Shown here piece by piece: positions 9,157 to 25,368 of a stretch of DNA of 54,037 nt. Each line of letters opens with the position of its first letter. Positions within the stretch are counted from its first letter, which is position 1. Source of the DNA: Ralstonia sp. SET104 (GTDB lineage Bacteria; Pseudomonadota; Gammaproteobacteria; Burkholderiales; Burkholderiaceae); contig NZ_BHVX01000022.1 in assembly GCF_003851545.1 (NCBI RefSeq), positions 1 through 54,037 on the forward strand, read 5' to 3'. A program made the position numbers and the translations under genes. The notes beneath the pieces were generated by a model. The model had not been told where the DNA came from. It worked only from the letters and a program-made list of their open reading frames with translations, and ran no database searches.

Positions 9157-10644
9157 TCAATCGGCGGGCGTGTCGGTCACGCCCGGTGGCGCATCATCGG
9201 GCTCGATCGGGTCGGGCGCAGAATCCAGCGCCGGCAGGCGAATCACGATCGCGCAGCCCCGTCCATCCGCGTGGGCCAGGCCGTCTTCAATCGCCACCGA
9301 GCCATTCCCCAATTCGGCGATACGGCGCACGATTGCCAGCCCGAGGCCGCTGCCCTGCGACTGACTGGTGCGCGGGCGGTAGAAACGTTCGAACACACGG
9401 TCGCGCTCGTCAGGCGGGATGCCGGGGCCGGAATCTTCAATGCGCAGCTCGACCATCGGCATGCCTGCCTGGTCGATACGCCGCACCGCCACGCGCACTT
9501 CGCCGCCGTTGGGCGTCTCACGCACGGCGTTGTCGAGCACGTTTTCCACCAGCGTGGCAGCGTCTTCATGTGACACCGACACCCACGCCTGGTTGGCGCC
9601 GTCGTACGACAGCGTGATGTCGCGCCGCTCGGCACGCGAGGCCTGCTGGATCACGCCGCTGCGCGCACAGCCCGCCAGATCGGACAACGCGCCCTGCGCG
9701 AGCTGCGCCTCCACGCGGCGCGCATCGAGCCGCGCGATGGCAAGCAGCTTGGCCAACGACTGCGTTGCGCGTGAAATGCCACGATCAAACTCGCGCAGCG
9801 CGGTGGAGCGATCGTCTTCGCTGTCGGAGTGCGACACGACATACGCCTGCGCCTGAATGGCCGCCAGCGGCGTGCGCAATTCGTGCGCGGCATCTGCAAA
9901 GAAGCGGCGGTCCGCCTCAATGCTACGGCGCACGCGCGCGAACAGGCCATTCAGCGCATCGACCAGCGGTTTCAGTTCGGCATGCTCAACGCTCTGCACG
10001 GGGTCGAGATCGGCGGAGTCGCGCGCCTCAACCTGGCGCGTGAGCGTGCGCAGCGGCTTGAGGCCCTGGTGCGCAGCCCAACCAACCATCACCATCAGCA
10101 CGCTCGCCAGAATGGCCAGCGCCACCGCCACCTCTTGAAAGAGATCGCGAATGGCGCGTTCGTAGGCAGACAGCGGCTGCGCCACCGTGGCTGAAAGTTT
10201 GCTGTCGATGCTGTCGACCGTATAGCTGCGCCATGGTTTGCCTTCCAGCATGATCTCGACGACGGTGTCGTGTGCCTTGCCGCACGGCATGGTGGGCGCA
10301 CCGGGGAAAGCAGTGATGACATGGCCGGCGCGATCACACAGCACGTAGCGGAATTCGCCGGGCAGGATGTTGGGCAGCGACAGGCCCAGCTTGATGTCGG
10401 TGAGGCGGCGCAGGAATTCTTCGCGGCGCGGCACATCATCCATGTTCAGGGTGGTGAGGTCCGCATAGGCCTGCGCCGACATGCGCAGATCGCTCACCAC
10501 CTGGCGGCTGTTGGTGCGCGAGATCTCCAGGTGCGCAATAACGAGCTGCACCAGCAGCATCAACACCAGCGCAAGCAGGATCAGCACATACAGCCGGAAC
10601 GACAGCGAGCGGACTCGCAGGATCGCCGGAACCGCCAGCTTCAT
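9157..10644 (-). CDS. Two-component sensor histidine kinase (QseC/TctE-like)
   Basis: The 495-residue membrane kinase has transmembrane segments at about 15-38 and 170-190 flanking a periplasmic sensor of roughly 130 residues, then a HAMP linker. The dimerisation helix carries the phosphorylated H254 in FFADAAHELRTPLAA. The ATPase domain shows the N box (LVENVLDNAVRETP), G1 (IEDSGPGIPP) and G2 (GSGLGLAIVRR). Its ATG overlaps the stop of the response regulator by four bases, so the two are translationally coupled. The signal is unknown. Two cysteines in the sensor domain (VLCDRAG and TMPCGKA) could form a disulfide. Confidence 0.95.
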   Translation of the reverse strand: MKLAVPAILRVRSLSFRLYVLILLALVLMLLVQLVIAHLEISRTNSRQVVSDLRMSAQAYADLTTLNMDDVPRREEFLRRLTDIKLGLSLPNILPGEFRYVLCDRAGHVITAFPGAPTMPCGKAHDTVVEIMLEGKPWRSYTVDSIDSKLSATVAQPLSAYERAIRDLFQEVAVALAILASVLMVMVGWAAHQGLKPLRTLTRQVEARDSADLDPVQSVEHAELKPLVDALNGLFARVRRSIEADRRFFADAAHELRTPLAAIQAQAYVVSHSDSEDDRSTALREFDRGISRATQSLAKLLAIARLDARRVEAQLAQGALSDLAGCARSGVIQQASRAERRDITLSYDGANQAWVSVSHEDAATLVENVLDNAVRETPNGGEVRVAVRRIDQAGMPMVELRIEDSGPGIPPDERDRVFERFYRPRTSQSQGSGLGLAIVRRIAELGNGSVAIEDGLAHADGRGCAIVIRLPALDSAPDPIEPDDAPPGVTDTPAD

Positions 10645-11318
10645 TGGGTGGCCCCGCGATTGCCACCGATCATGTAGCCGACACCGCGAATGGTCTGAAT
10701 GGTTTCGTTGCCGAGCTTGCGGCGCAAGTGGTGGATGACGACTTCGAGCGCGTTCGCGCTCACGCTGTCGCCCTCGCGATAGAGCGCGTCCATGAGCGTT
10801 TCGCGCGGCACCCAGCGATGGGCGCGGCGCACGAGTTCGAGCAGCAGTTGGTATTCGCGCGGCGTGAGTTCAATGACCTGCCCCCCTTGCGTCACCCGCT
10901 TCTGCGAGGGCTCCACCACCAGGTTGCCGACGTTCCACTGGTTGGTGCTCTGCCCCGCATGGCGACGCAGCACGGCGCGCAGGCGGGCGATAAGCTCGTC
11001 CACGGGAAACGGCTTGACGAGGAAATCGTCCGCGCCCGAATCCAAACCCTTGAGACGCTCGGACAACGCATCGCGCGCGCTGGCAATGATGACGGGCACG
11101 TCGCTGTGCGCGGCACGCAGTTCTTCGAGGAAGGTGTGGCCCTCACCGTCGGGCAACCCGAGATCGAGCACGATGGCCTCGAAGGTGTTGGTGGTGATCC
11201 ATTTTTGCGCGTCGACAAGGCGGCGCACCCAGGTCGCGTTGTAGCCGGCCTGACGCAGCGCGCGGGCCAGTGCGGTGCCCAGTGGCAAATCGTCTTCAAT
11301 AAGGAGAATGGCGTTCAT
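10641..11318 (-). CDS. OmpR-family response regulator (QseB-like)
   Basis: The 225-residue protein has a receiver domain at 1-118 with the acidic pair ED (8-9), phospho-acceptor D52 in IVLDLGLPDGEG and the conserved lysine in DDFLVKPF. The usual threonine/serine switch lies in VIIASARD. A linker leads to a winged-helix DNA-binding domain (LTPREYQLLLELVRRAHRWVPRETLMDALY, then NALEVVIHHLRRKLG, then IRGVGYMIGG). It is the first gene of a two-gene operon with the kinase. Targets are not evident from the window. Confidence 0.95.
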   Translation of the reverse strand: MNAILLIEDDLPLGTALARALRQAGYNATWVRRLVDAQKWITTNTFEAIVLDLGLPDGEGHTFLEELRAAHSDVPVIIASARDALSERLKGLDSGADDFLVKPFPVDELIARLRAVLRRHAGQSTNQWNVGNLVVEPSQKRVTQGGQVIELTPREYQLLLELVRRAHRWVPRETLMDALYREGDSVSANALEVVIHHLRRKLGNETIQTIRGVGYMIGGNRGATQ

Positions 11319-11540
11319 GCGCGGGAATCTCGGCGGCGGGAATAACGTAAACGGACAACCGGCACCCAGGAAAACAGGCGCCGGCGAAGGTCGAAATCTA
11401 CCGCAATGGACTGAGCTTTACCTTAAATGTGTGGCGACACGTGACGTGGCAGTCGCCCCACAAACAGAGACTGCGCATGGTTATCGGCATAGAAAGCAGC
11501 CTCTTGACTATCACTAAAAAACTTCAATTGTATTTTTCTT

Positions 11541-11926: not shown

Positions 11927-13027
11927 TTGAGCGCGAACCTGCCTACCGTCTCCGACCTGCCCGACGCACGCGCGCCCTCGCGTGATTATCAAGCACGCCA
12001 TTTCGTGCCGATGATTCTCGCGCTAAGCAAATGCGGCGTGCTCGGTTATGGCTTCGCAATCATGCTGGGCTGGTCGGTCGGGCTGCTGCATCGGCCGGAG
12101 CCGCTGCTTGCGCTGCTCGTGCTGTTGATAGTCATCGTGCAGACGGCGCAGCGGCATCGGCATACTGGCCTGTGGGGGCCGCTGGCGCTTACCCATCTGT
12201 TTGCCGAAGAAGTTGCCATCATCGCGTTTGGCCATCAGGCCGGCCTCGAATGGGTGCTGCCCGCGTTCTACCTGATGCCGCTTGCCACCAGCCCCGCGTG
12301 GCTCACCCGGCGCGATTTCTGCATTGCCATGGCGCTGTGCACCGCCGGGCCCATCACCGCGCTGCTCATCGCGCCAGAACCCGCCACGACAATCCACCAT
12401 GGGTGGCTGGGCCTGGTGCTCTATCTGCCCATCTGTATTGCGGCGGCCGCCGTCATTCACCACTACCTGCTGCGCGCCATGGCGCGACACTTTGCAGCCG
12501 AACGCAGCCTGGCCGATCGTGCCAACACCGACCACCTGACGGGCATGCTCGCGCGGCAGCGCTTCTTTGAATTGGGCAGCTTTGCGGTAGAGCGCGCGCA
12601 GCATCATGCCGAGCCGCTCTGCGCGCTGTACCTCGACGTTGATCACTTCAAATCCATTAACGATACGTGGGGACACGCCGCCGGCGACGACGCACTCGTT
12701 GCACTGTCCGACGCGCTGGCAGGCGTGCTGCGCCCGGCTGATCTGTTCGGCCGATTGGGCGGCGATGAATTTGCTGTGCTGCTGCCTGGCTGCGGCCTGA
12801 CCGGCGCGCTTGCGGTGGTCGATCGGCTCAAGACTGCCGTGGCCGACACGCAAACGCCGGTAGGCCCGTTGACCGTGAGCGTAGGAGCCGCACCGCTGCG
12901 CCCGGGGCAAGACCTCGCGCGCCTGCTGGCCGATGCCGACATCGGCCTGATGGAAGCCAAGCGCCAAGGCCGCAACCGCGTGTGCGTGCCAGCCGACGTG
13001 CGAAGCGTGGCAGACCAACCACACTAG
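11927..13027 (+). CDS. Membrane diguanylate cyclase (GGDEF)
   Basis: The 366-residue reading starts at TTG 11927; an ATG at 12011 would shorten it by 28 residues and is also possible because neither has a strong ribosome site. Residues about 28-190 hold several hydrophobic helices (MILALSKCGVLGYGFAIMLGW, LLALLVLLIVIV, LGLVLYLPICIAAAAVIHHY) acting as a membrane sensor. The GGDEF domain follows a short coiled segment; the active site is GRLGGDEFAVLLPG with GGDEF at 278-282, and LDVDHFKSIND precedes it. RPAD sits five residues before GGDEF, a correct RxxD inhibitory site, so this cyclase should be feedback-inhibited by c-di-GMP. It lies just upstream of an MscS gene. Confidence 0.92.
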   Translation: MSANLPTVSDLPDARAPSRDYQARHFVPMILALSKCGVLGYGFAIMLGWSVGLLHRPEPLLALLVLLIVIVQTAQRHRHTGLWGPLALTHLFAEEVAIIAFGHQAGLEWVLPAFYLMPLATSPAWLTRRDFCIAMALCTAGPITALLIAPEPATTIHHGWLGLVLYLPICIAAAAVIHHYLLRAMARHFAAERSLADRANTDHLTGMLARQRFFELGSFAVERAQHHAEPLCALYLDVDHFKSINDTWGHAAGDDALVALSDALAGVLRPADLFGRLGGDEFAVLLPGCGLTGALAVVDRLKTAVADTQTPVGPLTVSVGAAPLRPGQDLARLLADADIGLMEAKRQGRNRVCVPADVRSVADQPH

Positions 13028-13097: not shown

Positions 13098-14231
13098 ATG
13101 GAGTGGCTGAATGCCCACACCTTCCTGCGCGTGCCGGCCCGCGACTGGGCGGCCGCCGCACTTACGGTGGTTGCCACCTATGCGCTGTTGTCCAGCGTGT
13201 TGCGCCTGATCGGTAACCGGTTTGAAGCCCGTGCGCGCCGCACTGGCTATCGCTTCGACATCCTGGCCTCGGCAGTGCTGCGCGATACGCATCCGCTGTT
13301 CATCGCGCTGGCCGCGCTGCTGGCAGGGTCGTATTTCATCGACCTGCCCACGCGCATTGCCAACAAACTCGACCACATCTGGTTCGTCATCATCGGCTTC
13401 CAGGTCGCGCTATGGCTCAACCGCGCCGTAAAGCTGTGGGCGCGTGATCGGCTGTCTACGCAAACCCACGCCACGCGCAACCCTGTGATCACATCGATGA
13501 CGGGGTGGGTGCTGCGGTTTGCATTGTGGTCGATGCTGCTGCTGGCCATTCTGGCCAACGTGGGCGTGAACATCACGGCCTTCGTCGCCAGCCTGGGTGT
13601 AGGCGGTGTGGCGGTCGCGCTGGCGGTACAGAGCATCCTGAGTGACCTGTTTGCCTCGCTCGCCATCGGGCTGGACAAGCCGTTCGAGATCGGTGACTTC
13701 ATCGTCTTCGAATCGATTGCCGGCACGGTGCAGCACGTGGGGCTCAAAACCACGCGCATCCGCAGCTTGTCGGGTGAGGAGATCGTTGCTTCCAACACGG
13801 CGTTGCTCAAGAGCACGATCCACAATTACAAACGAATGTCGGAACGACGCATCGTCTTCGCCTTCGGGGTGACCTACGATGCGCGCGCGGCGCAATTGCA
13901 GAAGATTCCGGACATCGTGCGCCACGCGGTGGAAGCTGCGGGCAACACGCGCTTCGACCGCGCGCACTTCAAGGAATTTGGCGAAAACGCGCTGAACTTC
14001 GAGGTCGTGTACTTCGTCACCGATCCGGACTTCAACCTGTACATGGACATTCAGCAGCGCATCAACCTGACGATCCTGGAGGGGCTGGAGAATCTCGGTA
14101 CGTCGTTCGCGCTGCCGACACGCACGATCCAGCTTGTGCGTCGTGACGGCGAGCCCGTTGAACCGGAAGACCTGGCGGGCCGCAAATCCACAGCGGGCAC
14201 CCAACGCGTAAGCGCGCGGGCTAGCGGCTGA
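13098..14231 (+). CDS. MscS-family mechanosensitive ion channel
   Basis: The 377-residue protein has three or four N-terminal membrane helices and then the pore helix with the glycine/alanine pattern ITAFVASLGVGGVAVALAVQ, followed by SDLFASLAIGLDKPFEIGDFI, the MscS beta-domain signature. The C-terminal cytoplasmic domain runs to about 345 and ends in TRTIQLVRRDG with a short polar tail. The channel opens under membrane tension to relieve osmotic downshock. It starts 70 bases after the diguanylate cyclase, and its 3' end overlaps by 11 bases the convergent hydrolase gene. Confidence 0.94.
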   Translation: MEWLNAHTFLRVPARDWAAAALTVVATYALLSSVLRLIGNRFEARARRTGYRFDILASAVLRDTHPLFIALAALLAGSYFIDLPTRIANKLDHIWFVIIGFQVALWLNRAVKLWARDRLSTQTHATRNPVITSMTGWVLRFALWSMLLLAILANVGVNITAFVASLGVGGVAVALAVQSILSDLFASLAIGLDKPFEIGDFIVFESIAGTVQHVGLKTTRIRSLSGEEIVASNTALLKSTIHNYKRMSERRIVFAFGVTYDARAAQLQKIPDIVRHAVEAAGNTRFDRAHFKEFGENALNFEVVYFVTDPDFNLYMDIQQRINLTILEGLENLGTSFALPTRTIQLVRRDGEPVEPEDLAGRKSTAGTQRVSARASG

Positions 14232-15108
14232 GCACCGCGGGCATGGTGATAAACGCTGCGTCAAGGCTGTGCCACAGCGGCCTTGAACGCGGCACCATGT
14301 CTTGCCGGAAGTACCACCAGAAGTAGCCGCCCACAAAGCGCGGATGCGCAATCGTGAGCCCGTAGTAGTGCGCGACGAGCGCCGCCTTACGGGCGGCATG
14401 CCGCGTACCGACTTCACCAAAGCCGAGCATGGCGTGCGGAAACTGTTGGCCCAGGCGGCCGAACACCGCGTTCCAGTCGGGCGGCGCGATCTTGCAGTCG
14501 TCTTCATAAAAGCTGATGAACACGTAGTCGAGCCCGTCGCGCAGGCGCGGGGGCAGGTTGCGCTCGACCCAACTGAACATCGTGCGTGACGGCTGCTCGG
14601 CACAGCCTTCGTTGTAGTAGAGCGTGAGTGCCACGCGGCCGCCAGCGGCTTTGATGATCTCGTAAGCAGCCATGGTCTTGTCGACCACGTCGTGTGTGGG
14701 GCCCGTCCACTCGCCATTGATCTCGTTGCCGATTTCCCAGACGTCGACGGTCTTGCCGAGCGTGTGCAGGTAGGCGGTTGCGCGCTCGCGCAATTGCAGC
14801 GTGGTGTATTGCCTGAGCGTAGAGGAATCCACCAGTTCGCCCATCACGTACGCCACGTGCCGGATGGCGGCCACGGGCCCGGCGTAGTGCGGCGCGTCCA
14901 TACCTTCATCAAAGACGATGCGCACGGTGGGCGTGCGCGATAGGTGCGCCAGCGCATCCACCACGGCCGGCACGTTGTCCACCGCATCAACTGTCACCCC
15001 ATATAACGGCGCAGGGCCGGCAGGCATCATGCCCACCGGCCCCGCGGCCTGGGTGGATGCACTCAATACCAGCATTGTCACTGCCAGTATCAAGCGCATC
15101 CGGAGCAT
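14221..15108 (-). CDS. Exported clan GH-A-like glycoside hydrolase of the polysaccharide cluster
   Basis: The 295-residue protein begins with a signal peptide (LILAVTMLVLSASTQAA, cleavage near residue 22; translation could also begin at MRLILAV, 15099). The rest resembles a TIM-barrel hydrolase. VWEIGNEINGEW carries a GNE motif with E129 as candidate acid/base, and LGFGEVGT carries E232 as candidate nucleophile, the spacing and contexts expected of clan GH-A. Aromatic residues near the end (GGYFWWYFRQD) could line a sugar site. It starts 3 bases after the DUF2334 gene and is last in the cluster. Inferred job: trimming or releasing the glycan in the periplasm. The exact family is not assigned. 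Confidence 0.72.
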   Translation of the reverse strand: MLRMRLILAVTMLVLSASTQAAGPVGMMPAGPAPLYGVTVDAVDNVPAVVDALAHLSRTPTVRIVFDEGMDAPHYAGPVAAIRHVAYVMGELVDSSTLRQYTTLQLRERATAYLHTLGKTVDVWEIGNEINGEWTGPTHDVVDKTMAAYEIIKAAGGRVALTLYYNEGCAEQPSRTMFSWVERNLPPRLRDGLDYVFISFYEDDCKIAPPDWNAVFGRLGQQFPHAMLGFGEVGTRHAARKAALVAHYYGLTIAHPRFVGGYFWWYFRQDMVPRSRPLWHSLDAAFITMPAVLSR

Positions 15109-15111
15109 GGC

Positions 15112-16830
15112 TTACTGCACCGTGCTGGCGTCCACCCAGGTAAAGCCCAGTGCGGAGATGCCGCTGATGATGGTTTGGAAATCCTGATAGCCCGGCGTGC
15201 CGAGTTCCGGTTCCAGCCAGAACGGATGGAAGAAGAACGAGGCAAAGCCATCGCGCACAACCTGCGCATACGTTGCGTTGGTCAAGATGTCCTGCGCGGT
15301 GTACGTCAGGCACGATGACGGATCGATATTGCAGATGTTGTATTCCACGTTGCCAAGGTTTTCCGGAATCACGCGCTGGTTGTAGTAGTCCTTCTGAATG
15401 ATGTAGGGGAAGAACTGGCCAACCGAGAAATCGTGACCCAGCGTGCTGGCATTCAGCGTCTGCGGATTGTCAGACGTGTAGTACACCACGCGCTGATACG
15501 TGTTTTTGAAGTACTGCGGCACCGCCTTGATGGCCAGCGGAGACGACTGGTAATGCGGCGCCTCCCATGCAAACGGCGTGTAACCGTTGAGCTGGAACTC
15601 CAGCAGGCCGGCAGACAAGCGCCCTGCTGCCCATTGCGTTGAATCTTCGTTCACGGGCCGGTTCTGCGTGGCGAGCCAGAACTCGAAGTCGTTCGCGCTG
15701 ACCGCGTTGATGAGGTTCGGAATGTTGCTGTACTGATGCGTATAGCCGTGCATCAGGATATGCCCGCCGCGTGCCAGCGCGTGGTTCAGCGCCTTCTTGA
15801 GCCCTGTTGCATTGACCAGGTGAATGGTCTGCGAGACGCCGCCGTTGTAAACGCCGTTCGGGTCTGTATACAGCGGGATGGTGGCGAGCGAGAACGGAAT
15901 CTTCAGGCTGTACAGGTAGTCAGTCAGGGTGTTGATGGACGTCACGGTATTGGTGGCGTTGATATCTTCCAGGCGCACCAGTGCGCGGTGCAGCGTGGGC
16001 GCATTCGTGCCCAGCATGTCATGCAGCATGTCGCACATCACCAGGTAGCGGTCGCGCGGTCCGATGTACGAAAACGGCATGTCGGCCACATACCAGAAGT
16101 TGCCCGAGCGGATGATGTACGGCGCGGTTTCCTGCGTGACCGAATTGGTGATGGTCACCACGCTGCTGGCCTTGGTGGCATCCACCACAGACGTTACGCC
16201 AATGTCGGGATCGGCCGAAATGACACCGCTCGTGGCATCGAAGGCGTAGTACTTGGTCATGGACTGGCTCTTGTACGACACGGTATCGAAGAACCCCGGG
16301 TTCGGCGTGCTAGCCGAGGGCGCCGCATTCATGCCGCGCAGGCCGGCAAAGTTGATCCCGTAGCGCGTGGTGAACGGATACGCCGTATTCCAGGCGAGCT
16401 CCCACAGGTTGTACTTGAACCAGACGACGGTTTTCTGTGTGGTGGTCACATCCGACAGGAACGCCGCCGGTATGGGGTTGTTGTAGTAACTCCCCAGGTA
16501 GAACGTGGCGGTGTACTGCTCGGTCATGCCGGCCGTGTAGTTTTGCACGGGCAGCATGGTGATGGTGGTGTTGAAGTGTGCGAGCAGGTTGTACAGCATG
16601 ATCGCGTACGCCTTGCCCAGGTTGGTGTACTGGTCGTTGGCGGGCGCATCGTACAGCACCAGCATCTTGGCCGGCGTGGTCTGCGCCGATGCAGAGCCGC
16701 CGACCGTCACGCAAATGGGCCCGAGCCCGATCGTGCAGGTGGCGCCCTGTGCTGGCCCTGTCAGCGAAATACCAAGCAGGCCGCCCGCAAACACGAGCGC
16801 GCACAGGAACTTACGTAGCAGTGTCTTCAT
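15112..16830 (-). CDS. DUF2334 polysaccharide-deacetylase-like periplasmic protein
   Basis: From ATG 16830, which follows GGAGAG, the product has 572 residues. A signal peptide (LCALVFAGGLLGISLTGPAQG) is cleaved near residue 30. After an N-terminal domain of about 240 residues comes a DUF2334 region related to polysaccharide deacetylases: RLEDINATNT near 286, the histidine motif LMHGYTHQY near 360, WEAPHY, and a late FFFHPFWLEP. In the deacetylase fold such acidic and histidine residues bind the metal. It lies between a small exported protein and a glycoside hydrolase in the glycan cluster. I infer N-deacetylation of the exported polymer, by analogy with PgaB; catalytic competence is not proven by sequence. 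Confidence 0.78.
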   Translation of the reverse strand: MKTLLRKFLCALVFAGGLLGISLTGPAQGATCTIGLGPICVTVGGSASAQTTPAKMLVLYDAPANDQYTNLGKAYAIMLYNLLAHFNTTITMLPVQNYTAGMTEQYTATFYLGSYYNNPIPAAFLSDVTTTQKTVVWFKYNLWELAWNTAYPFTTRYGINFAGLRGMNAAPSASTPNPGFFDTVSYKSQSMTKYYAFDATSGVISADPDIGVTSVVDATKASSVVTITNSVTQETAPYIIRSGNFWYVADMPFSYIGPRDRYLVMCDMLHDMLGTNAPTLHRALVRLEDINATNTVTSINTLTDYLYSLKIPFSLATIPLYTDPNGVYNGGVSQTIHLVNATGLKKALNHALARGGHILMHGYTHQYSNIPNLINAVSANDFEFWLATQNRPVNEDSTQWAAGRLSAGLLEFQLNGYTPFAWEAPHYQSSPLAIKAVPQYFKNTYQRVVYYTSDNPQTLNASTLGHDFSVGQFFPYIIQKDYYNQRVIPENLGNVEYNICNIDPSSCLTYTAQDILTNATYAQVVRDGFASFFFHPFWLEPELGTPGYQDFQTIISGISALGFTWVDASTVQ

Positions 16831-16853
16831 GATGACTCTCCGACTCATGACAA

Positions 16854-17294
16854 TCATGGGCGATAGACCGAGCCATCCGCTTGGCGGTAGAGCCCGAGAT
16901 TGAAGTTGAGGCCACGGTCGTGGCCACGTTCGGTACCTGTCGCTTCGTTTTCCGGCACGCCGGGGCGGACGTCAGTCATGACCACCGTGCGTGGCGGCGG
17001 GATGACCTGTCCGTTCTCATCCATGACGCCGTAGCCGTAGGCGCGCGGGCCTCCGGTCACGGGCCTGGGTGCCGCCGCCACAACAGTGGGCTGCACGGCC
17101 GCGGCTATGACCCTGGAAGACGCGGGCGACGAGGCTTTCTTGTCCGCGTTTGAAACGGGGCCGCTCCGGTCCACCGCACCCGTCACGATGGCGGGCACGC
17201 CCCCATCGCCGGCCCACGGTGGCGCAACGATCAGCCACCCGGCAACGAGTGCAGAGGCCAGCAACACGCCACCCCCGATTCGTTTCGCTTTCAT
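16854..17294 (-). CDS. Small exported proline/alanine-rich protein of the polysaccharide cluster
   Basis: The 146-residue protein starts at ATG 17294 after TAGGAGGCTTTG, a near-perfect ribosome site. Residues 5-25 form one hydrophobic segment (GGGVLLASALVAGWLIVAPPW), a signal anchor or uncleaved signal. The rest is a low-complexity linker rich in A, P, S and V, ending in a conserved-looking tail (YGYGVMDENGQVIPPPRTVV, then GLNFNLGLYRQADGSVYRP). I do not recognise a family. It is 9 bases after the epimerase gene and 23 bases before the deacetylase-like gene, so it is certainly part of the operon. A structural or linking role in the periplasm is possible. Confidence 0.7.
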   Translation of the reverse strand: MKAKRIGGGVLLASALVAGWLIVAPPWAGDGGVPAIVTGAVDRSGPVSNADKKASSPASSRVIAAAVQPTVVAAAPRPVTGGPRAYGYGVMDENGQVIPPPRTVVMTDVRPGVPENEATGTERGHDRGLNFNLGLYRQADGSVYRP

Positions 17295-17303
17295 CAAAGC
17301 CTC

Positions 17304-18563
17304 CTAGCCGTTAAGGCGGTGCTGCACGGACGACGCTTGCACGGTGGCACGCGCCGCTTCCAGATCGATGATCTCGGCCTGCGGGGCCGGTTTGCGAGTC
17401 AGTTGCGGGCCGCGCGCCACCTTCTGCGGCTGCGTGGTGAAGGCCTGCCTGAGCGCATCGACAATCCGTCGGCAGGCCTGCCCGTCACCGTAAGGGTTGT
17501 GGGCCTGCGCCATGCGTGCGTATTCGGTGCCGTCGTTCAGCAGCGTTTCGGCTTCGTCGACGATGCGTTGCGTGTTGGTGCCCACCAGGCGTGCGGTGCC
17601 CGATGCCACGGCCTCCGGGCGCTCGGTAGTGTCACGCGTCACCAGCACCGGCTTGCCCAGCGCGGGCGCTTCTTCCTGAATGCCGCCGGAATCCGTGACG
17701 ATCAGGTAGGCGCGATCCATGAGGTAGACGAACGGCAGGTAGTCCTGCGGCGCAATCAGGTGAACGTTGTCATGGCCGGAAAGGATGGCGTTGACGGGCT
17801 GCTGCACGTTCGGGTTCAGGTGCACCGGATACACGATCTGCACATCCGGATGACGCGCCGCCAGCAGGCGCAGCGCCACACAGAAGTTCTCGAACGGCTC
17901 GCCGAAGTTCTCGCGGCGGTGGCCTGTCACCAGAATCATCCGCCGGCCCGCCTTCAGAAACGGATAGCGCGCGGCCATCTGCGCTGACAGCGAGGCGTCG
18001 TCGTCCAGCCGTTGCTTGACGGCCAGCAGCGCGTCGATGACGGTGTTGCCGGTGAGCGTGACCTGCTGCGGATCAATGCCTTCGTCCAGCAGGTTCTGGC
18101 GCGATTCCGCCGTGGGTGCGAAGTGCCAGGTGGTCACGGAATCGGTGACGCGGCGGTTCAGTTCCTCCGGCCATGGCGACCAGATGTTGCCGGTGCGCAA
18201 ACCCGCTTCCACATGCCCGACCGGAATGCGCCGATAAAAGGCCGCGAGGCTTGCCGCCAGCGTGGTTGTCGTATCACCGTGGACGAGCACGGCATCCGGC
18301 TGGTAGGCGTCGAGCACGCCGTCGATGCCGCCCAGCACGTTGGACGTGATGTCGGACAGCGTTTGCCCGGGCCGCATCAGGTTGAGGTCAAACTCCGGCG
18401 CGATGCCGAAGAGTTCCAGCACCTGATCCAGCATTTGCCGGTGCTGCGCGCTCACGCACACCGCCGACGCAAAGCCTGTCTCCGCCTGCAACGCCTGCAC
18501 CAGCGGCGCCATTTTGATGGCCTCCGGGCGCGTGCCGAATACAGTCAAAATTTTCCCTGTCAT
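17304..18563 (-). CDS. wecB: UDP-N-acetylglucosamine 2-epimerase (non-hydrolysing)
   Basis: This enzyme interconverts UDP-GlcNAc and UDP-ManNAc. The 419-residue protein shows the family blocks [77 protein letters not shown], and the UDP-binding [18 protein letters not shown] with [10 protein letters not shown] 18563 follows GGGGAAATC; start codons 15 and 33 bases further upstream are less well placed. The C-terminal tail (about 45 residues after [15 protein letters not shown]) is longer than in the E. coli enzyme of 376 residues. Placement beside NfrA/NfrB-type genes suggests it feeds ManNAc to their polymer. In E. coli wecB is unlinked, sitting in the enterobacterial common antigen locus. 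Confidence 0.93.
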
Positions 18564-18808
18564 GATTTCCCCAGTCATCTGCATCGGCGCATGCAAAGCG
18601 CAACGACCAACATGTCGCTTCTAACGCTGGGCAGACTTCGCCAATGAGCGAAGGCCGTGCCATGCGTCCCGCTTTGACCCACCATGGCGCGGCGACGCCA
18701 TCTTGCGGACGTCGCTGCCATTTCACTTGGTTACCCGTTTCCCTCGGTGGTCAAAAACGTTTCATCTGCGACACCTCTGACTGGGGTCTGCTTGAATCTG
18801 GAGTTGGC

Positions 18809-20557
18809 CTAGAACCAAAGAATGGCTCGCGCGACCACCCCTTTTGCGCGATCCGCGTGCGTCAATGGCAAGCGGTACTGCACGGTAAAGTCCAGCCAAC
18901 TGGCCGGCGCTGCGTATTGCGACTCGCGAAACCAGTAGCGAAAGTTGATGCCGGGGCCGATACCCAGCGCAAGCCGCTGGCCAATCGCCTTGTTGTCGTG
19001 ATCGCCCGCGAGCACGACATGCGGGTACATCGTCAGGCGATCACTGATGGAGTTCACGCGCCACGTGTGGCCGTAGCGCATTTCCGTGCTGATGATCATG
19101 CGGCCCTGATTGACGAAGTACGCACTCTCGCCATACACCTGCCACGTCTGCCAGCGCGGCCTGGTGACCTGCAGGTCAAGGCCCTGGTCGGTTGAAAAGC
19201 CGATGCGCAACAGCGTGTCGTTGGTCGTCAGTTGCCCGATACGGAAGAGGCGCTCGGCGGTGAACACCAGGTTGATGTCCTTGATCGGCTTGTAGCGCGC
19301 ACCCGCCGAGCCCTGCGCGGTCGGCAAACCGGTGTGGCCATTGCGGTCGTACACGCTGTCGTAACCACGTACGAAGAGCTGGAAGATGCTGCCGTCGCGG
19401 TAGCCGATACCCGGCGGCTGCCAGTACACCTCGGCGCCCGCCTGGCCGGCACTCACGGTGTTGGGCAAACCGAATGCCGACGTTTGATACGCGCCCGAGA
19501 GCACCATGCCGAAGGTGCGCTGCATCTGCTCGATTTCACGCCGGTAGCCGAAGCGGCGGTCTGGCTGGAGGCGGTCGTCACCACCGCTGTCACCATCCTT
19601 GCCGCTGTCGCTTTTGGCATCAGCGTCGGCGTGGTCGAGGCTTTTTCGGAAGAGCTTGATGGCGGTGGGGTTGTCGCCCAGGCGCTTGGCTGCATAGGCA
19701 GCATCGGCGTAGTGGGTCCAGTTGCCCTGGCCGGTGGCAAAGCCGCGCTGAAAGGCCGCCAGCGCAGCGCGATCGTCACGCGCGCGGAGGTGGCCGTAAG
19801 CCTCGTTCAATTCACGCTGGCCGATCACGCGCGGGTCATTGGCAGACGTGGCCTCGCCCTGCGCGGCGGGCGCCATCGCCTGGGCAAGCAGTGCCTTTGC
19901 ATAGCGCTGCCGCGCCGGGTCCGCAGCGTGTTCGGCGGCAAGGGTGGCGGCTTGGGTGGCTCCATCCCGGTCGCCCAGTTGCAGGCGCGACTGCGCGAGG
20001 CGCAGTTGCACGTCGGCATCGGGCTCATCCTTGAGGCCGCTCAGCGCGTCCAGCGCTGCTTGCGGGTGCTTGGCGGAATAGGCACTGTCCGACCACGCCA
20101 GATGCAGGTTGCGCTGCTCCTGCGCGGTCCAGTCGGTGCCTTGCACGGCGTGCGCAAAGTCCTGCTCGGCGACGGCGGGATCGCTCGCTTTCTGCGCGAG
20201 GAACCCGTGCTGTGCGTACACGCGCGGTTCGTTCGGATACTTCTGCAGCAGCGCATCGGCCTGCGTGCGGGCCGCATCCAGCTTGCCTTTGCGCGTGAGC
20301 ACATCCAGCAGCAGCAGGTTCAGTTGCAGGCTATCGGGCTGCACGGCCAATGCTGCGCGTATGGCGGCTTCGGCATCGTCGAGCTGGTTGGCATCGATGA
20401 GGTGATAGGCGCGGTCCGCACGAAAATAGGCGTCGGGCTGCAACGCCTGCGCAGCCTGCTGCGCCATCGATACGCCCTGACACAAGGCCCACACTGCCGC
20501 GGCAATCGGCCAGCGCAAGCGGTGCAGGCTTGAACGGTTGGCTCTCTCGTGTTTCAT
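18809..20557 (-). CDS. nfrA: NfrA-like TPR and outer-membrane protein
   Basis: The 582-residue protein has a signal peptide (IAAAVWALCQGVSMAQQ), then tetratricopeptide-like helical repeats from about residue 40 to 310 (for example AYHLIDANQLDDAEAAIRAALAVQPDS), a polar hinge with SDSGKDGDSGGDD, and a C-terminal domain of about 230 residues made of alternating beta strands that ends in phenylalanine (ARAILWF), the outer-membrane barrel signature. This is the layout of NfrA, the phage N4 adsorption protein, and of PgaA. E. coli NfrA is about 990 residues, so this version has fewer repeats. Its start overlaps the glycosyltransferase stop by four bases. It should conduct the glycan across the outer membrane. 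Confidence 0.82.
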   Translation of the reverse strand: MKHERANRSSLHRLRWPIAAAVWALCQGVSMAQQAAQALQPDAYFRADRAYHLIDANQLDDAEAAIRAALAVQPDSLQLNLLLLDVLTRKGKLDAARTQADALLQKYPNEPRVYAQHGFLAQKASDPAVAEQDFAHAVQGTDWTAQEQRNLHLAWSDSAYSAKHPQAALDALSGLKDEPDADVQLRLAQSRLQLGDRDGATQAATLAAEHAADPARQRYAKALLAQAMAPAAQGEATSANDPRVIGQRELNEAYGHLRARDDRAALAAFQRGFATGQGNWTHYADAAYAAKRLGDNPTAIKLFRKSLDHADADAKSDSGKDGDSGGDDRLQPDRRFGYRREIEQMQRTFGMVLSGAYQTSAFGLPNTVSAGQAGAEVYWQPPGIGYRDGSIFQLFVRGYDSVYDRNGHTGLPTAQGSAGARYKPIKDINLVFTAERLFRIGQLTTNDTLLRIGFSTDQGLDLQVTRPRWQTWQVYGESAYFVNQGRMIISTEMRYGHTWRVNSISDRLTMYPHVVLAGDHDNKAIGQRLALGIGPGINFRYWFRESQYAAPASWLDFTVQYRLPLTHADRAKGVVARAILWF

Positions 20558-22689
20558 GCCACACCTCCCGCAACAGACGGATCGGGCCGCGCATCCGGTC
20601 CAAGAGGCGGCCCTGTAGGCAGGTCCGGCGGCACGGAGATGGAGGGATTGGTGGAAACCTCGGGTGCGGGTGCCGTGCCGGCTGAAACGCCTGGGCCGGC
20701 GCCCGTCATGGATTCGGCGGCTGGCGTGGCCGCGAGTACGGCGGAGTAAGCCGTCGGGCCAAACACGACCGTGGCACGGCGGTTCGGGTCGGCCATCTGC
20801 GCCAGTTCGGCCGACATTTCATGGTCGCACGCCATGAAACACGCGACTTTGCGCCCGGCCGCTCGGGCCAGCTCCTCCAGCACTTCGCCGTTCGGCAACT
20901 CCGACACGGCGATGTTGAGCGAGCCATCCTCGCCAATCGAGAACGGCACCACGTGATGCCGCACAGCCAAGTCACGCGGCAGGCAATCGGCCAGCGCCCC
21001 CAGCACGACGTTGGTCAGGCTCACGCGCGGCAGATCCACCTGCTCTGCCAGTGCATCGGCCAGCGTATCGGCCGTGACCATGCCCTGCTCGACCAGCACT
21101 TGCCCAAGCCGCCGTCCGGTCTCGCGATGGATGACGAGCGCCGCATCCAACTGTTCCTGCGTGAGGACTTCCCACTTGATAAGCGTCTCGCCCAGCTTGC
21201 AACGCGTGCGGCCCAGCGCGTCGTTCGACAGATACATGTGCTGGGTTTTGTCCCAGGCAATGGGCTTGCCGGTCAGGCAGTAGATCAGGAAGATCTTCCA
21301 CGCGCGGCATACCGAGAAGAAGTTGATGAAGTTGTTCACCACCAGCCTGGGCACGCACAGCACGCCTTGCAGCGGGCCGTTCAGCCGCCCGACAAAGTAC
21401 ACGCGCTGTGCCAGCCGATTAACGAGCAACGCTGCGTTGATGGCAAGCAGATCCTGCATCCACACGGTGCCAACTGCAAACGTACCGTCCGGCATCACCA
21501 CTACGCCCTGGGCCATCAACCCGCCCAGCACCAGGTAGTTGAGTGACAGCACATACGCCAGGATCGAGAACAGCGCCGTCAGCACGCCCTTGCGGTCTCG
21601 GAAGAACATGTAGCGGGTGATGAGGTTGCCGTTCCACCCCATCTGCAGCCAGCCCTGGAAAGCGATGCCAAGCACCCAGCGTGCGCGCTGCCGGTAGGCC
21701 GCGCGGAACGTGCTTGGAAAGTACTCGCGCGTGGCCGGCAGTTGCGGACGCACGCCCTTGCGCCGGCCCAGGCGCCAGCGCGTACGCGTCTTGCCCTGGG
21801 CATCTTCCGAGGGCTCTGCGTTCTCGCAGATCGGGAAATGCACGAACGCTTCACGCATGCCCAGCTCGCGCAGGCGGAAGCTGAAGTCATAGTCCTCCGT
21901 GAGCGTGCTGGTGTTGAAGGGGGATTCGCCACACACTTTCATCACCGCCTCGATGGCGCGGCGGCTGTAGCACAGCGCCACGCCGGCGCCGGGCACTGTG
22001 CCGGTCAACGCCTGGCGCGCTATCAGATCTTTCTGGTGCATCTCAGAAAAATCATCCATGTACGTGCCAGCGACCCACTCGTACCACTTGCGCTCGAGCG
22101 ACAGCACCGGCAACTGCACAAGATCCTGGTCGCGGATGAAGTAGTTGAAATACTTCAGCTCCAGCGGGTGGATCACGTCTTCGCAGTCGTGCATGATCAC
22201 GCCCGCAAAGCGGATGCCGTGCCCCGCCTCGTGCCGGATGATGGTCTGGATGATGGTATTCAGGCAGTCCGCCTTGCACGTCGGGCCATCGTGCGTGACG
22301 GCGGCGCGCACTACGCGGCCAGGATAGCGGCGCACCATGCGCTCGACTTCGGCGGTGGTCTCCGCATCGTTACGATAGGCGCCGGCAAAGATGATGAAGC
22401 GCGTGTACTCCATCGTCGCCAGGGTGTTCTCGACCATCTTGGCGATGACGTCGTACTCCTTCCACGCCGGCACCATGACAGCGAGCCATTGCTCCTCGCG
22501 TTCACGCAGCGATTGCGCCGAAATCGTGACTGGCGTGCGCCCACGCTGCGGCCAGAGCCACAGCTCCCGCACCCAGTAGAAGGCATCCACGAAGAAATCG
22601 TCGGCGGTGCTGATGAAGATGACGAGCGTAGTCGCCACCGTCAAGGTGTTGAGCAACGCCAGGTAAAGCTCCCATGGCAGATCGCTCAT
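20554..22689 (-). CDS. nfrB: NfrB-like processive glycosyltransferase with MshEN c-di-GMP-binding domain
   Basis: The 711-residue inner-membrane enzyme leads the polysaccharide cluster. A helix at about 8-28 precedes a GT-2 domain with the nucleotide/metal motif MHDCEDVIHP (D168, E170, D171), the acceptor motif LTEDYDFSF (E265, D266) and QRARW (334-338), the QxxRW signature of processive synthases. Membrane helices follow at about 368-470. Residues 498-550 are a MshEN domain: KLGETLIKWEVLTQEQLDAAL and then the more canonical RLGQVLVEQGMVTADTLADAL ending in AEQ, the known c-di-GMP-binding fold. The last 60 residues are a low-complexity P/G/A tail. In E. coli NfrB this architecture makes a c-di-GMP-controlled glycan used by phage N4. 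High confidence in domains, moderate in product. Confidence 0.9.
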   Translation of the reverse strand: MSDLPWELYLALLNTLTVATTLVIFISTADDFFVDAFYWVRELWLWPQRGRTPVTISAQSLREREEQWLAVMVPAWKEYDVIAKMVENTLATMEYTRFIIFAGAYRNDAETTAEVERMVRRYPGRVVRAAVTHDGPTCKADCLNTIIQTIIRHEAGHGIRFAGVIMHDCEDVIHPLELKYFNYFIRDQDLVQLPVLSLERKWYEWVAGTYMDDFSEMHQKDLIARQALTGTVPGAGVALCYSRRAIEAVMKVCGESPFNTSTLTEDYDFSFRLRELGMREAFVHFPICENAEPSEDAQGKTRTRWRLGRRKGVRPQLPATREYFPSTFRAAYRQRARWVLGIAFQGWLQMGWNGNLITRYMFFRDRKGVLTALFSILAYVLSLNYLVLGGLMAQGVVVMPDGTFAVGTVWMQDLLAINAALLVNRLAQRVYFVGRLNGPLQGVLCVPRLVVNNFINFFSVCRAWKIFLIYCLTGKPIAWDKTQHMYLSNDALGRTRCKLGETLIKWEVLTQEQLDAALVIHRETGRRLGQVLVEQGMVTADTLADALAEQVDLPRVSLTNVVLGALADCLPRDLAVRHHVVPFSIGEDGSLNIAVSELPNGEVLEELARAAGRKVACFMACDHEMSAELAQMADPNRRATVVFGPTAYSAVLAATPAAESMTGAGPGVSAGTAPAPEVSTNPSISVPPDLPTGPPLGPDARPDPSVAGGVA

Positions 22690-23370
22690 GGCTGCTCCCC
22701 TGCTCCCACCCTACGGGCGCGTTGCCAGTGTCCGGCGTACCCCCCGCCTTGCGCTGTGGCGCTCATACTTCCCCCAAGGTCTTTTCGACATGCGGCGCAA
22801 CCGCTTGCACCGTGGCATCTGACCCAATCACCTGCTATCGATCGGGTTGATGCGTCGCCCTCTAGCCTGCTTGCCGCGAGGAGGAACGCGAGGACCATAC
22901 CAACACCCGCCAAGGCGCACGGTTATGCGATGCAGCGCACACAAGCGCCTTCAGGGACGTGCCGGATACACCGGGTTGTTGCATGGGTGAACGCAAAGCA
23001 CGGGCGGCAAGGGTGCCAGGGCCAACGCCACGGCATGCAACGCGATCTGTTGGGGTGGGATATTCGTCCGGGCTGCGGACAAGGCCTCCCTACGAATGAC
23101 GGAGGCGATGCGTGGTCAGGTGCAGGGCGTTCGGGTTAAGCGTCCGAGGACCGGCCTTGCGCGGGTCCGCGCCCGTGTCTGCGCACGAACCACAGCGGGC
23201 AAGGAAATGAAGCGCGCAAAGCCTTGTGTGCAAAGGCTTTGCGAGACACCACGCGCACCAGTTGCGCGGGCGCAAGCTGATGCGCGACATCCTGGCAGGC
23301 ATATGCCGCAACCAGCGCGGGCCGAAGCAACAACATCGGCCCAAGCAGTCTGGCGAATCGGTTGCAGCGC
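22690..23370. other. Intergenic region upstream of the polysaccharide cluster
   Basis: About 680 bases between the nfrB-like start and the terminator of the chemoreceptor gene. Open frames here are extensions or antisense shadows, with no ribosome site or protein family that I recognise. It should contain the promoter of the polysaccharide cluster, but no operator stood out by eye. Confidence 0.5.
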
Positions 23371-23427: not shown

Positions 23428-25266
23428 TCAGAACTGTTCCCAATCGTCGGCATCGTTGGAGACCGCAGCCAAGGCAAGCTTGCCTGTCCTGGGTTCGGCC
23501 GCCACGGCAGGCGCAGCCTTGGCGTTCGGAGTCTGTACGACGGCTGGCTTGACTGGCGCTGCGAGGCGCTTGCGTGCCGCACGCGCCGTCGGCACGGCAG
23601 GTTTGCGCGCAGCCGGTTTAGCGACCGGGCTGGATGCGGCCGATGTCGTCGATATTGTCGATGCCGCAGGCATTGCCTTCGCCGCCACGGGCGCCAGCAC
23701 GGGCTCGGCATGCGCACCGGCCGCCGGCAGGCGGAACGACGCCACCGTTTCGCGCAGCACGCCGGCCTGTTCTTCCAGCGATTGCGCGGCAGCAGCCGCC
23801 TCTTCCACCAGCGCGGCGTTCTGCTGGGTCACCTCGTCCATCTGCGTGACAGCCTGGTTGACCTGTTCGATACCGGCGCTCTGCTCGTCCGATGCGGAAC
23901 TGATCTCGCCCATGATGTCGGTCACGCGCTTGACGGCCACCACCACTTCGTCGATCACCGTGCCGGCCTCAGTCACCAGCATCGAGCCGTTCTCAACACG
24001 GCCCACCGAATCGCTGATGAGTTCCTTGATCTCCTTGGCCGCCGTCGCCGAGCGCTGCGCCAGGCTGCGCACCTCACCCGCCACCACCGCAAAGCCGCGG
24101 CCCTGTTCGCCTGCGCGTGCAGCTTCCACCGCGGCATTCAGCGCCAGGATGTTGGTCTGGAAAGCAATGCCTTCAATCACGCCGATGATGTCAGCGATCT
24201 TCTTGCTGCTGTCGTTGATGCCCGACATCGTCTCGATCACGCGGCCCACCACCTCGCCGCCCTTCACGGCGATGTCCGATGCGTTGCCCGCAAGCTGGCT
24301 GGCCTGGCGTGCATTGTCGGCGTTCTGCTTCACGATGCTCGTCAGCTCTTCCATGCTCGACGCCGTTTCCTCCAGCGACGACGCCTGTTCTTCCGTGCGT
24401 TGCGACAGGTCCATGTTGCCTGCCGCAATCTGCTTGGTGGCGCTGGCAATGGATTCACTGCCGCCGCGCATCGTCACGATGGTGCGGATCAGGCCGCGCT
24501 GCATGTCGATCAGACCTTGCATGAGCGCACCCATTTCGTCCTTGCTGGTAACGGTGATGCGCTCGGTCAGGTTGCCATGCGAGATCGCGCTGAAGTGGCC
24601 CAGCATGTTTGACAGCGGCACCGAAATCGCGCGGTGCAGGCCGAACGCGCAGCCCAGCGCCGCCGCAATACCCACCACGATGGCGCCGATGATGAGCATC
24701 AGAAAAGCATGCGAGCGAGCCGCCGCACCCTCGTATGCAGCCTTGGCCTGTTCGGCCTGACTGCGGTCCAGTGCATCTGCGGCCACCGTAAGCGCCACAG
24801 ACAATGGCGGAATCGTCTTCATCACGACCGTGTCGGCAGCGGCAACGTCGTGCGCGCGCAGCGCGGCCATCAGCGGTTCGATCCCGTCACTGAACAGCGC
24901 GTTGCGCTTGGCCTCCATCTCGGCGGCCAGGCGCGCCTCGTCAGCGTTCATGGGCAGCGCCTTGTACGCCTTCCAGGCATCGTCCGACTTGGTGCGGTAA
25001 CCGGCGGCCTTGTCGATGATGGCCGGCACGTCGGCGGCATCCGGATGGAAGACCGCGCGATCAAGCGTCGTGCGCACGATCGCCGCGTTCAGTTGTGCCT
25101 TGCCCACCAACGACGTCGAAACCAATTGATTGGTATAGATGTCGTTGATATTCGCGTCGGATGCGCGCATCCCGACCACGCCAATGGTGCCGGTCATGGC
25201 CAGCAGCAAGGCGAGCAGCGTCAGCGCTGCATTGAGCCGAAAACGGATGGAAAGTCGATTGAGCAT
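23428..25266 (-). CDS. Methyl-accepting chemotaxis protein
   Basis: The 612-residue receptor (ATG 25266; a GTG lies three codons upstream) has a first membrane helix near 10-32, a four-helix-bundle ligand domain of about 155 residues, a second helix ([21 protein letters not shown]), a HAMP domain, and a long signalling coiled coil with the hairpin tip [42 protein letters not shown] is the usual methylation region. After it comes a linker of about 90 residues rich in A, P, K and V, and the protein ends DDWEQF, matching the xWxxF tether that recruits CheR and CheB. The ligand is unknown. It stands alone, with its own terminator. Confidence 0.95.
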
Positions 25267-25368
25267 GGGAGTCACAGCGGGTTATCGCCTCCGCTATATC
25301 GGCTAGCCCCCGCCATTCCTGAAGCCCAGTCCGGGCAAGGGCGCGGTTACCTCCCATGCAAGATGTGG

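Follow-up and report, generated by a model that had tools for sequence, protein, structure and literature searches.

The closest described pathway is that of Escherichia coli, in which NfrBA, YbcH and WecB make the phage N4 glycan receptor (NGR). Linkage of wecB to nfrB is known in many species, and the nfrB-nfrA-wecB core, also in company with O-acetylation genes, has already been published (PMC8669469, PMC8669472); in 2021 the same two papers still described NGR chemistry as unresolved. No mention of DUF2334 or of a hydrolase was found in the parts of these papers that were covered, and a deacetylase/hydrolase half was not found in the open-licence literature (supplements not covered in either case). 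Here we describe a six-gene nfr cluster from Ralstonia sp. SET104, located in a stretch of 54,037 nucleotides (nt) that we call the window (NZ_BHVX01000022.1, contig 22 of an assembly of 4.80 Mb whose completeness score is 100). Its nearest named relatives are Ralstonia sp. and R. pickettii, and the source probably falls in the R. pickettii group. The cluster is a real and well-conserved pathway of the NfrAB (NGR) type, whose second half comprises a predicted deacetylase and a predicted hydrolase. We consider it probable, with moderate confidence, that it encodes a complete synthase-dependent NGR exopolysaccharide system, in which an N-acetylmannosamine (ManNAc) polymer would be de-N-acetylated and trimmed in the periplasm in the manner of the Pel and poly-N-acetylglucosamine (PNAG) systems.

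Gene content of the Ralstonia cluster

14221..22689, minus strand: six-gene nfr cluster in the order nfrB-nfrA-wecB-small-DUF2334-GH
20554..22689, minus strand: nfrB, 711-amino-acid (aa) inner-membrane family 2 glycosyltransferase (GT2) synthase with a C-terminal MshEN cyclic di-GMP (c-di-GMP) domain
20785..21198, minus strand: predicted MshEN c-di-GMP-binding region of nfrB, residues 498-635
18809..20557, minus strand: nfrA, 582 aa, tetratricopeptide repeats (TPR) plus predicted outer-membrane export pore
17304..18596, minus strand: wecB, nonhydrolyzing UDP-N-acetylglucosamine 2-epimerase, TTG start
16854..17297, minus strand: small exported protein, 147 aa, TTG start, candidate partner of the DUF2334 protein
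15112..16857, minus strand: DUF2334 protein, 581 aa, predicted exported polysaccharide de-N-acetylase
14221..15108, minus strand: glycoside hydrolase (GH)-like TIM barrel, 295 aa

An earlier sequence-only reading of this DNA had proposed six tightly packed minus-strand genes, and all six open reading frames were found where it placed them. By coordinates, nfrB and nfrA share 4 bases (ATGA), as it had noted, the small-protein and DUF2334 genes also share 4, and spacers of 6 and 3 nt separate wecB from the small-protein gene and the DUF2334 gene from the GH gene. The packing is thus tight at these junctions but not between nfrA and wecB, where a 212-nt spacer contains a sigma54-like site; the cluster is therefore not a single unbroken pack. 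The arrangement is more than a chance one: all 14 other Ralstonia loci of this type that were read have the identical six genes in identical order, with a contig end truncating nfrB in two of them (L055 and L056). The sequence-only reading would have been refuted by an unconserved gene order in relatives; the order holds within Ralstonia, whereas elsewhere it is shuffled though the set is mostly retained.

NfrB matches GT2 models (PF13641 and PF13632), the c-di-GMP motif NF053729 at residues 498-550, exactly where an MshEN domain had been proposed, and Pfam MshEN (PF05157) at 552-635. Its identity to E. coli NfrB is 38% across 614 aligned columns. The GT2 core is intact, with D168 (DxD-type Asp), T264-E-D266 (TED), and Q334-R-A-R-W338 (QxxRW); the E. 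coli counterparts of D168, D266, and W338 are D169, D267, and W330, and those of L499, G500, G529, and L547 in the MshEN part are L490, G491, G519, and L537. Mutagenesis of E. coli NfrB has tested D169, D267, W330, L490, G491, and L537 (PMC8669469), as well as G491 and G519 (PMC8669472). A fragment of E. coli NfrB binds c-di-GMP with a Kd of 1.0 uM (PMC8669469). When the MshEN region was compared with solved chains by phmmer, it matched MshE (5htl, E 4.3e-8) and also PilB/PilF chains. NfrB passes the equivalog NF012033 (PRK15489; 1116 bits, cutoff 537) and does not reach the NCBI NfrB equivalog NF008411 (552 bits, cutoff 1170), which makes it an NfrB-like protein rather than an E. coli-type equivalog.

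NfrA matches NfrA_C (PF13283) at 161.6 bits (cutoff 25; E 1.7e-47). Among its TPRs, TPR_14 scores above the cutoff and TPR_16 and TPR_19 slightly below theirs; the significant match to E. coli NfrA is limited to the C terminus, at 23% identity. WecB matches TIGR00236 at 512 bits (cutoff 210), and the operon gene is the single match in the source genome. Six of 16 Ralstonia genomes, four of them at least 99% complete, have one wecB, and in all six it is the operon copy. Moreover, an E. coli WecC query finds one protein, which scores 146 bits on the WecC model (cutoff 459), 438.6 on the UDP-glucose dehydrogenase model TuaD (below that model's cutoff of 700), and 416.5 on the general model TIGR03026 (cutoff 189.8). 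Because the only wecB lies in the operon and the sole WecC-like protein is nearer to UDP-glucose dehydrogenase models, UDP-ManNAc appears to be made for the Nfr pathway, in keeping with the earlier proposal that an epimerase inside the cluster supplies the precursor. Altogether, the family matches and the conserved E. coli-tested residues agree with the earlier naming of NfrB, NfrA, and WecB, and the Nfr reading of the cluster is supported at the sequence level.

The two additional exported proteins proposed earlier as enzymes are likewise present. The DUF2334 protein matches its Pfam family at 145.9 bits (cutoff 26), and its model has a carbohydrate esterase family 4 (CE4)-like, NodB-like deacetylase fold. 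The candidate active site consists of E297-D298, H370-x3-H374, H544, and R456. The putative metal ligands D298, H370, and H374, the putative acid H544, and R456 do not vary among 20 DUF2334 rows that reach down to 26% identity. In a Foldseek search with the model, NDST1 was the first match, and several of the CE4 matches were peptidoglycan deacetylases. Against solved-structure sequences, the protein gave no match at E <= 1. The small exported protein has no Pfam or NCBIfam match; short proteins encoded immediately 5' of DUF2334 in Comamonas, Noviherbaspirillum, and another member of the Burkholderiales are 26-27% identical to it, with five invariant columns in an alignment of 8 rows. The source genome also encodes a shorter DUF2334 protein (contig 1, 151333-151770), and nothing examined ties the shorter form to nfr.

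In clan GH-A, the acid/base Glu follows strand 4 and the nucleophile Glu lies at strand 7. The last protein of the cluster has no match in Pfam or NCBIfam scans; its model, however, is a (beta/alpha)8 barrel in which E129 and E232, invariant in the alignment, occupy these positions, which favors the earlier glycoside hydrolase call. A search of 200 genomes of the family found matches in 33, confined to three genera. A paralogue in the source genome (contig 3, L042 10243-11238) is nearer to the nfr-linked GH of Burkholderia than the operon GH is.

In Comamonas, the GH position is taken by a YbcH-type DUF4434 gene, which overlaps the end of the DUF2334 gene by 4 nt; C. testosteroni is one carrier of the DUF4434 form. 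DUF4434 (PF14488) has no match in the source genome at E <= 0.01. Homology between the GH-like protein and YbcH was not detectable in their sequences (none by BLAST; hhalign probability 0.24%, E 0.25) and was rejected at that level, and the likeness that is left consists of genomic position and two conserved Glu. E. coli ybcH (L004 4092-4982) is itself a DUF4434 gene; the E144 and E245 of its product are unchanged in all 7 aligned rows, as a hydrolase-like barrel would have them; against solved structures, the YbcH-type alignment best matched 4h41 (E 0.002), followed by 3ndy (E 0.075). YbcH has been described as a putative scaffold (PMC8669469). Our comparison suggests that it may instead be a hydrolase-like part.

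Distribution and linkage of the DUF2334 gene

To relate the DUF2334 protein to NfrB, we surveyed 299 genomes of the family, 92 of which encode an NfrB relative at E <= 1e-100: 41 with a close NfrB (783 bits or more; type A) and 51 with a distant NfrB only (type B). The long form of DUF2334, defined at E <= 1e-60, was present in 42 genomes, namely all 41 of type A plus G013, whose nfrB is truncated at a contig end, and in none of the 51 of type B. Within the genera that have the long form, both it and type-A NfrB were missing from G010 (genus g1), G026, G138, and G156 (g12), G031 (g17), and G097 and G120 (g25). We read 40 type-A loci from 40 of the 42 genomes, excluding the window's own and G245. 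DUF2334 was found in 39 of them (not L070) and GH in 39 (not L065). The 17 lower-identity (type-B) loci contained neither; 15 had a BcsB-like gene, 7 an AlgX-like gene, and 12 a YbcH-like gene. In three Ralstonia genomes, an additional nfr cluster belongs to the BcsB kind (L057, L058, and L059), with AlgF/AlgX/MBOAT genes in two and truncation near a contig end in the third.

A second set comprised 78 named loci selected for encoding DUF2334, with an overlap of about 10 with the family-survey genomes. An NfrB-like protein (300 bits or more) was encoded in the fetched stretch of 47, together with NfrA in 41, WecB in 31, the small protein in 34, GH in 33, YbcH-like in 34, and GH or YbcH-like in 44. 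These loci come from Burkholderia, Trinickia, Paraburkholderia, Comamonas, Variovorax, Noviherbaspirillum, Microbulbifer, a Parachlamydiaceae bin, and Bdellovibrionota bins, so that DUF2334 is found near NfrB in three phyla. The arrangement is DUF2334-wecB-nfrB-nfrA-ybcH, facing GH, in Trinickia; small-DUF2334-ybcH, divergent from an nfrB-nfrA pair that faces GH, in Burkholderia; and wecB-nfrB-nfrA-small-DUF2334-ybcH in Comamonas. Since gene orders vary among genera, the linkage is not merely inherited order. On two Ignavibacteria contigs (L172 and L175), DUF2334 adjoins wecB. Proteins of about 1300 aa with an N-terminal DUF2334 (L170, L173, L175, and L178) occur in Acidobacteria/Terriglobia, Ignavibacteria, and Aminicenantes; the remainder of each has no Pfam match above the cutoff.

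On an NfrB tree of 41 rows, from a sample enriched for DUF2334 and with uncertain long branches (L158, L171, L174, and L177), DUF2334 linkage takes 4 changes. E. coli falls within a well-supported clade of six rows, and the remaining five are DUF2334-linked. The tree thus fits an old NfrB-DUF2334 association that disappeared from E. coli and from the majority of BcsB/AlgX-type clusters. DUF2334 had zero matches in 50,697 phage records, and plasmid copies were found in 3 of 72,556 records. As to the phage-receptor role that the sequence-only reading had raised as a possibility, 322 phage records contain a relative of N4 gp64, with no Ralstonia or Burkholderia among the 10 of 18 organism names listed.

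Candidate promoters and neighboring genes

22888..22902, minus strand: sigma54-like -24/-12 site, candidate promoter, 213 nt 5' of nfrB
18648..18662, minus strand: sigma54-like -24/-12 site, candidate second promoter, in the nfrA-wecB gap
22686..22766, minus strand: 26-codon upstream open reading frame (uORF), candidate coupled leader, whose TGA stop overlaps the nfrB ATG (ATGA)
11927..13027, plus strand: GGDEF protein, candidate local diguanylate cyclase, PF00990, with GGDEF (278) and RxxD (269)

Promoter searches used the -24/-12 pattern of sigma54, in the strict form TGGYAYG-N4-TYGC, and the FliA consensus. The strict sigma54 pattern matched twice in the window, both times in the correct direction in the gaps 5' of nfrB and wecB. 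Such a count is not significant by itself, as 12 of 100 shuffles also reach 2; the argument lies in position and conservation. When 11 other Ralstonia loci, all of them close relatives, were scanned, every one had the wecB site and all 9 that include the region had the nfrB site, with one further match across all. Outside Ralstonia, the strict pattern was not found within 400 nt upstream of nfrB (0 of 32), wecB (0 of 26), or nfrA (0 of 35). Judged by these motifs, it is probable that two sigma54 promoters divide the cluster into nfrBA and wecB-small-DUF2334-GH. This division, the deacetylase likeness of the DUF2334 protein, and the YbcH-type gene found elsewhere at the GH position were not part of the sequence-only reading.

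FliA control of nfrB, as in E. coli, was also considered. The FliA pattern with up to 3 mismatches gave 30 matches (13.3 expected; 0 of 100 shuffles reach 30), none of them inside the 738-nt gap 5' of nfrB, so FliA control is not supported. One FliA-like site with a single mismatch (11481-11507, minus strand) lies 5' of two genes, one (10641-11318) for a response regulator of the OmpR type and the other (9157-10644) for a histidine kinase.

The uORF is preceded by a strong Shine-Dalgarno-like sequence. By strict motif, it was found in 6 of 12 other loci, three of the misses having no nfrB start; variants include 23 codons in L108 and a GTG start of nfrB in L153. The GGDEF gene lies on the opposite strand, 1.2 kb past the cluster, with its motif intact, and is kept in 12 of 14 other Ralstonia loci, contig ends truncating the remaining two. 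Linkage of a diguanylate cyclase to nfr has been published for pseudomonads (PMC8669469). A gene for a Tar-like chemoreceptor (23428-25275, minus strand) adjoins nfrB and, like the GGDEF gene, has stayed in place in 12 of the 14, with contig ends cutting off the remaining two; by eye, a terminator-like hairpin lies 3' of it. An Rfam scan of the window gave zero matches.

Proposed pathway and comparison with known systems

From gene identities, intact residues, set conservation, and modeled folds, we infer a course for substrate, modification, and regulation. WecB would make UDP-ManNAc, and c-di-GMP bound at the MshEN domain would switch on NfrB, which would polymerize ManNAc and move the chain to the periplasm. 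There, N-acetyl groups would be stripped from part of the chain by the DUF2334 enzyme, in probable partnership with the small exported protein, and the GH-A barrel would cut or trim the chain, for length control or clearance of stalled chains. The NfrA TPRs would then take the chain and the NfrA barrel export it, the two sigma54-type promoters governing nfrBA and wecB-small-DUF2334-GH. The product would be a partly de-N-acetylated ManNAc polymer and, as such, partly cationic, and E. coli NGR may be a reduced version of this system. If so, DUF2334, for which the one literature mention found was a marine metagenome study, gains a testable function, and the dedicated epimerase, predicted deacetylase, and predicted hydrolase provide a handle for cutting or labeling the NGR polymer.

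Several observations weigh against this pathway. ManNAc as the substrate is based on E. coli genetics and gene linkage, and wecB is not in the fetched stretch of 16 of the 47 NfrB-DUF2334 loci. The co-occurrence of DUF2334 with NfrB is confounded by descent, the long form occurring in 4 of 25 genera. NfrB is missing from 31 of the 78 named loci; some of these are contig-end fragments and others apparent true orphans, two of which, in Ramlibacter, have no glycan-linked neighbors (histidine kinases in L149; aconitase and an exchanger in L155). A shorter DUF2334 protein (267-354 aa frames) is encoded in 16 of 16 Ralstonia genomes, including G010, which has no nfrB match; the Pfam family overall is thus not Nfr-bound, and the co-occurrence claim is for the long form only. 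Likewise, the 20 kb read around the GH paralogue on contig 3 contain no nfr gene. Finally, the base position of the DUF2334 protein holds Glu (E297), not Asp, in 20 of 20 rows, unlike in CE4 and CE18, and its activity could be weak or different.

An ordinary NGR system, whose ManNAc polymer would be exported without modification, like that of E. coli, while DUF2334 and GH serve quality control or turnover, would account for E. coli having just nfrBA-ybcH and wecB (PMC8669469) and for the 17 type-B loci without either enzyme. We regard it as unlikely, though the strongest of the rivals, because DUF2334 tracks close NfrB in every type-A genome while the same genera include genomes with neither or with distant NfrB only, and because the catalytic-type residues are invariant. 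Those same residues, kept down to 26% identity, speak against the DUF2334 protein being a noncatalytic scaffold or polymer-binding pseudoenzyme, which Glu297 and the CE4 pseudoenzyme BA3943 among its structural matches might suggest and to which we assign a somewhat smaller chance. Least likely of the three is that both enzymes work on peptidoglycan or some other glycan of the envelope rather than on the Nfr polymer, perhaps clearing a path for the NfrA pore; the peptidoglycan deacetylases among the CE4 matches and the DUF2334 copies outside nfr loci would fit, whereas linkage that tracks nfrB, and often wecB, across phyla would not.

Periplasmic de-N-acetylation and trimming of a ManNAc polymer is the reading we retain. 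A bolder extension of it is possible but doubtful: the long DUF2334 proteins would be an undescribed carbohydrate-esterase family for de-N-acetylating ManNAc polymers and an old core part of the NfrB pathway, the polymer would be natively cationic, a polymannosamine-like biofilm sugar, and E. coli NGR would be a reduced form that lost the deacetylase. The deacetylase tailspikes of NGR phages would then be explained by their attack on the very acetyl groups that, in other lineages, are taken off by the host's own enzyme.

Among known deacetylases, Agd3 (CE18) and NDST1 have the same motif order as the DUF2334 protein: metal Asp, H-x3-H, downstream Arg, and catalytic His (PMC7229062, PMC10864358). 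NDST1 also has a Rossmann-like N-terminal domain preceding its deacetylase domain, as in the DUF2334 model. In contrast to both, the DUF2334 protein has Glu at the base position; Agd3 was not among the structural matches listed for the model, and the three-domain CBM87-CE-beta layout of CE18 is only partly alike.

At the level of whole systems, E. coli NfrBA-YbcH with WecB has in common with the Ralstonia cluster the GT2-MshEN synthase, the TPR outer-membrane pore, WecB, and key residues. The Ralstonia cluster differs in containing wecB, in having no DUF4434 match, and in its extra small protein, DUF2334 protein, and GH-A-like enzyme; its NfrA is 582 aa long, compared to 990 in E. coli. The betaproteobacterial nfr clusters with BcsB and/or alginate-type O-acetylation genes (Achromobacter, PMC8669472; Simplicispira, PMC8669469) share the nfrB-nfrA-wecB core. 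Such clusters also occur in the three Ralstonia genomes that have both kinds, with O-acetylation genes in two of these. DUF2334 and GH were not seen in the 17 loci of this type that were read. NfrB of such clusters is 44-50% identical to that of the window. These clusters would add acetyl groups, whereas the Ralstonia cluster would remove them.

The Pel and PNAG systems (PelA/PelB and PgaA/PgaB) follow a like logic of c-di-GMP-controlled synthase, periplasmic deacetylase and hydrolase, and TPR outer-membrane pore. The PelA and PelB features compared here are those of PMC12022489. Compared to both, the Ralstonia system differs in its protein families and precursor, and its predicted deacetylase and hydrolase are encoded by separate genes.

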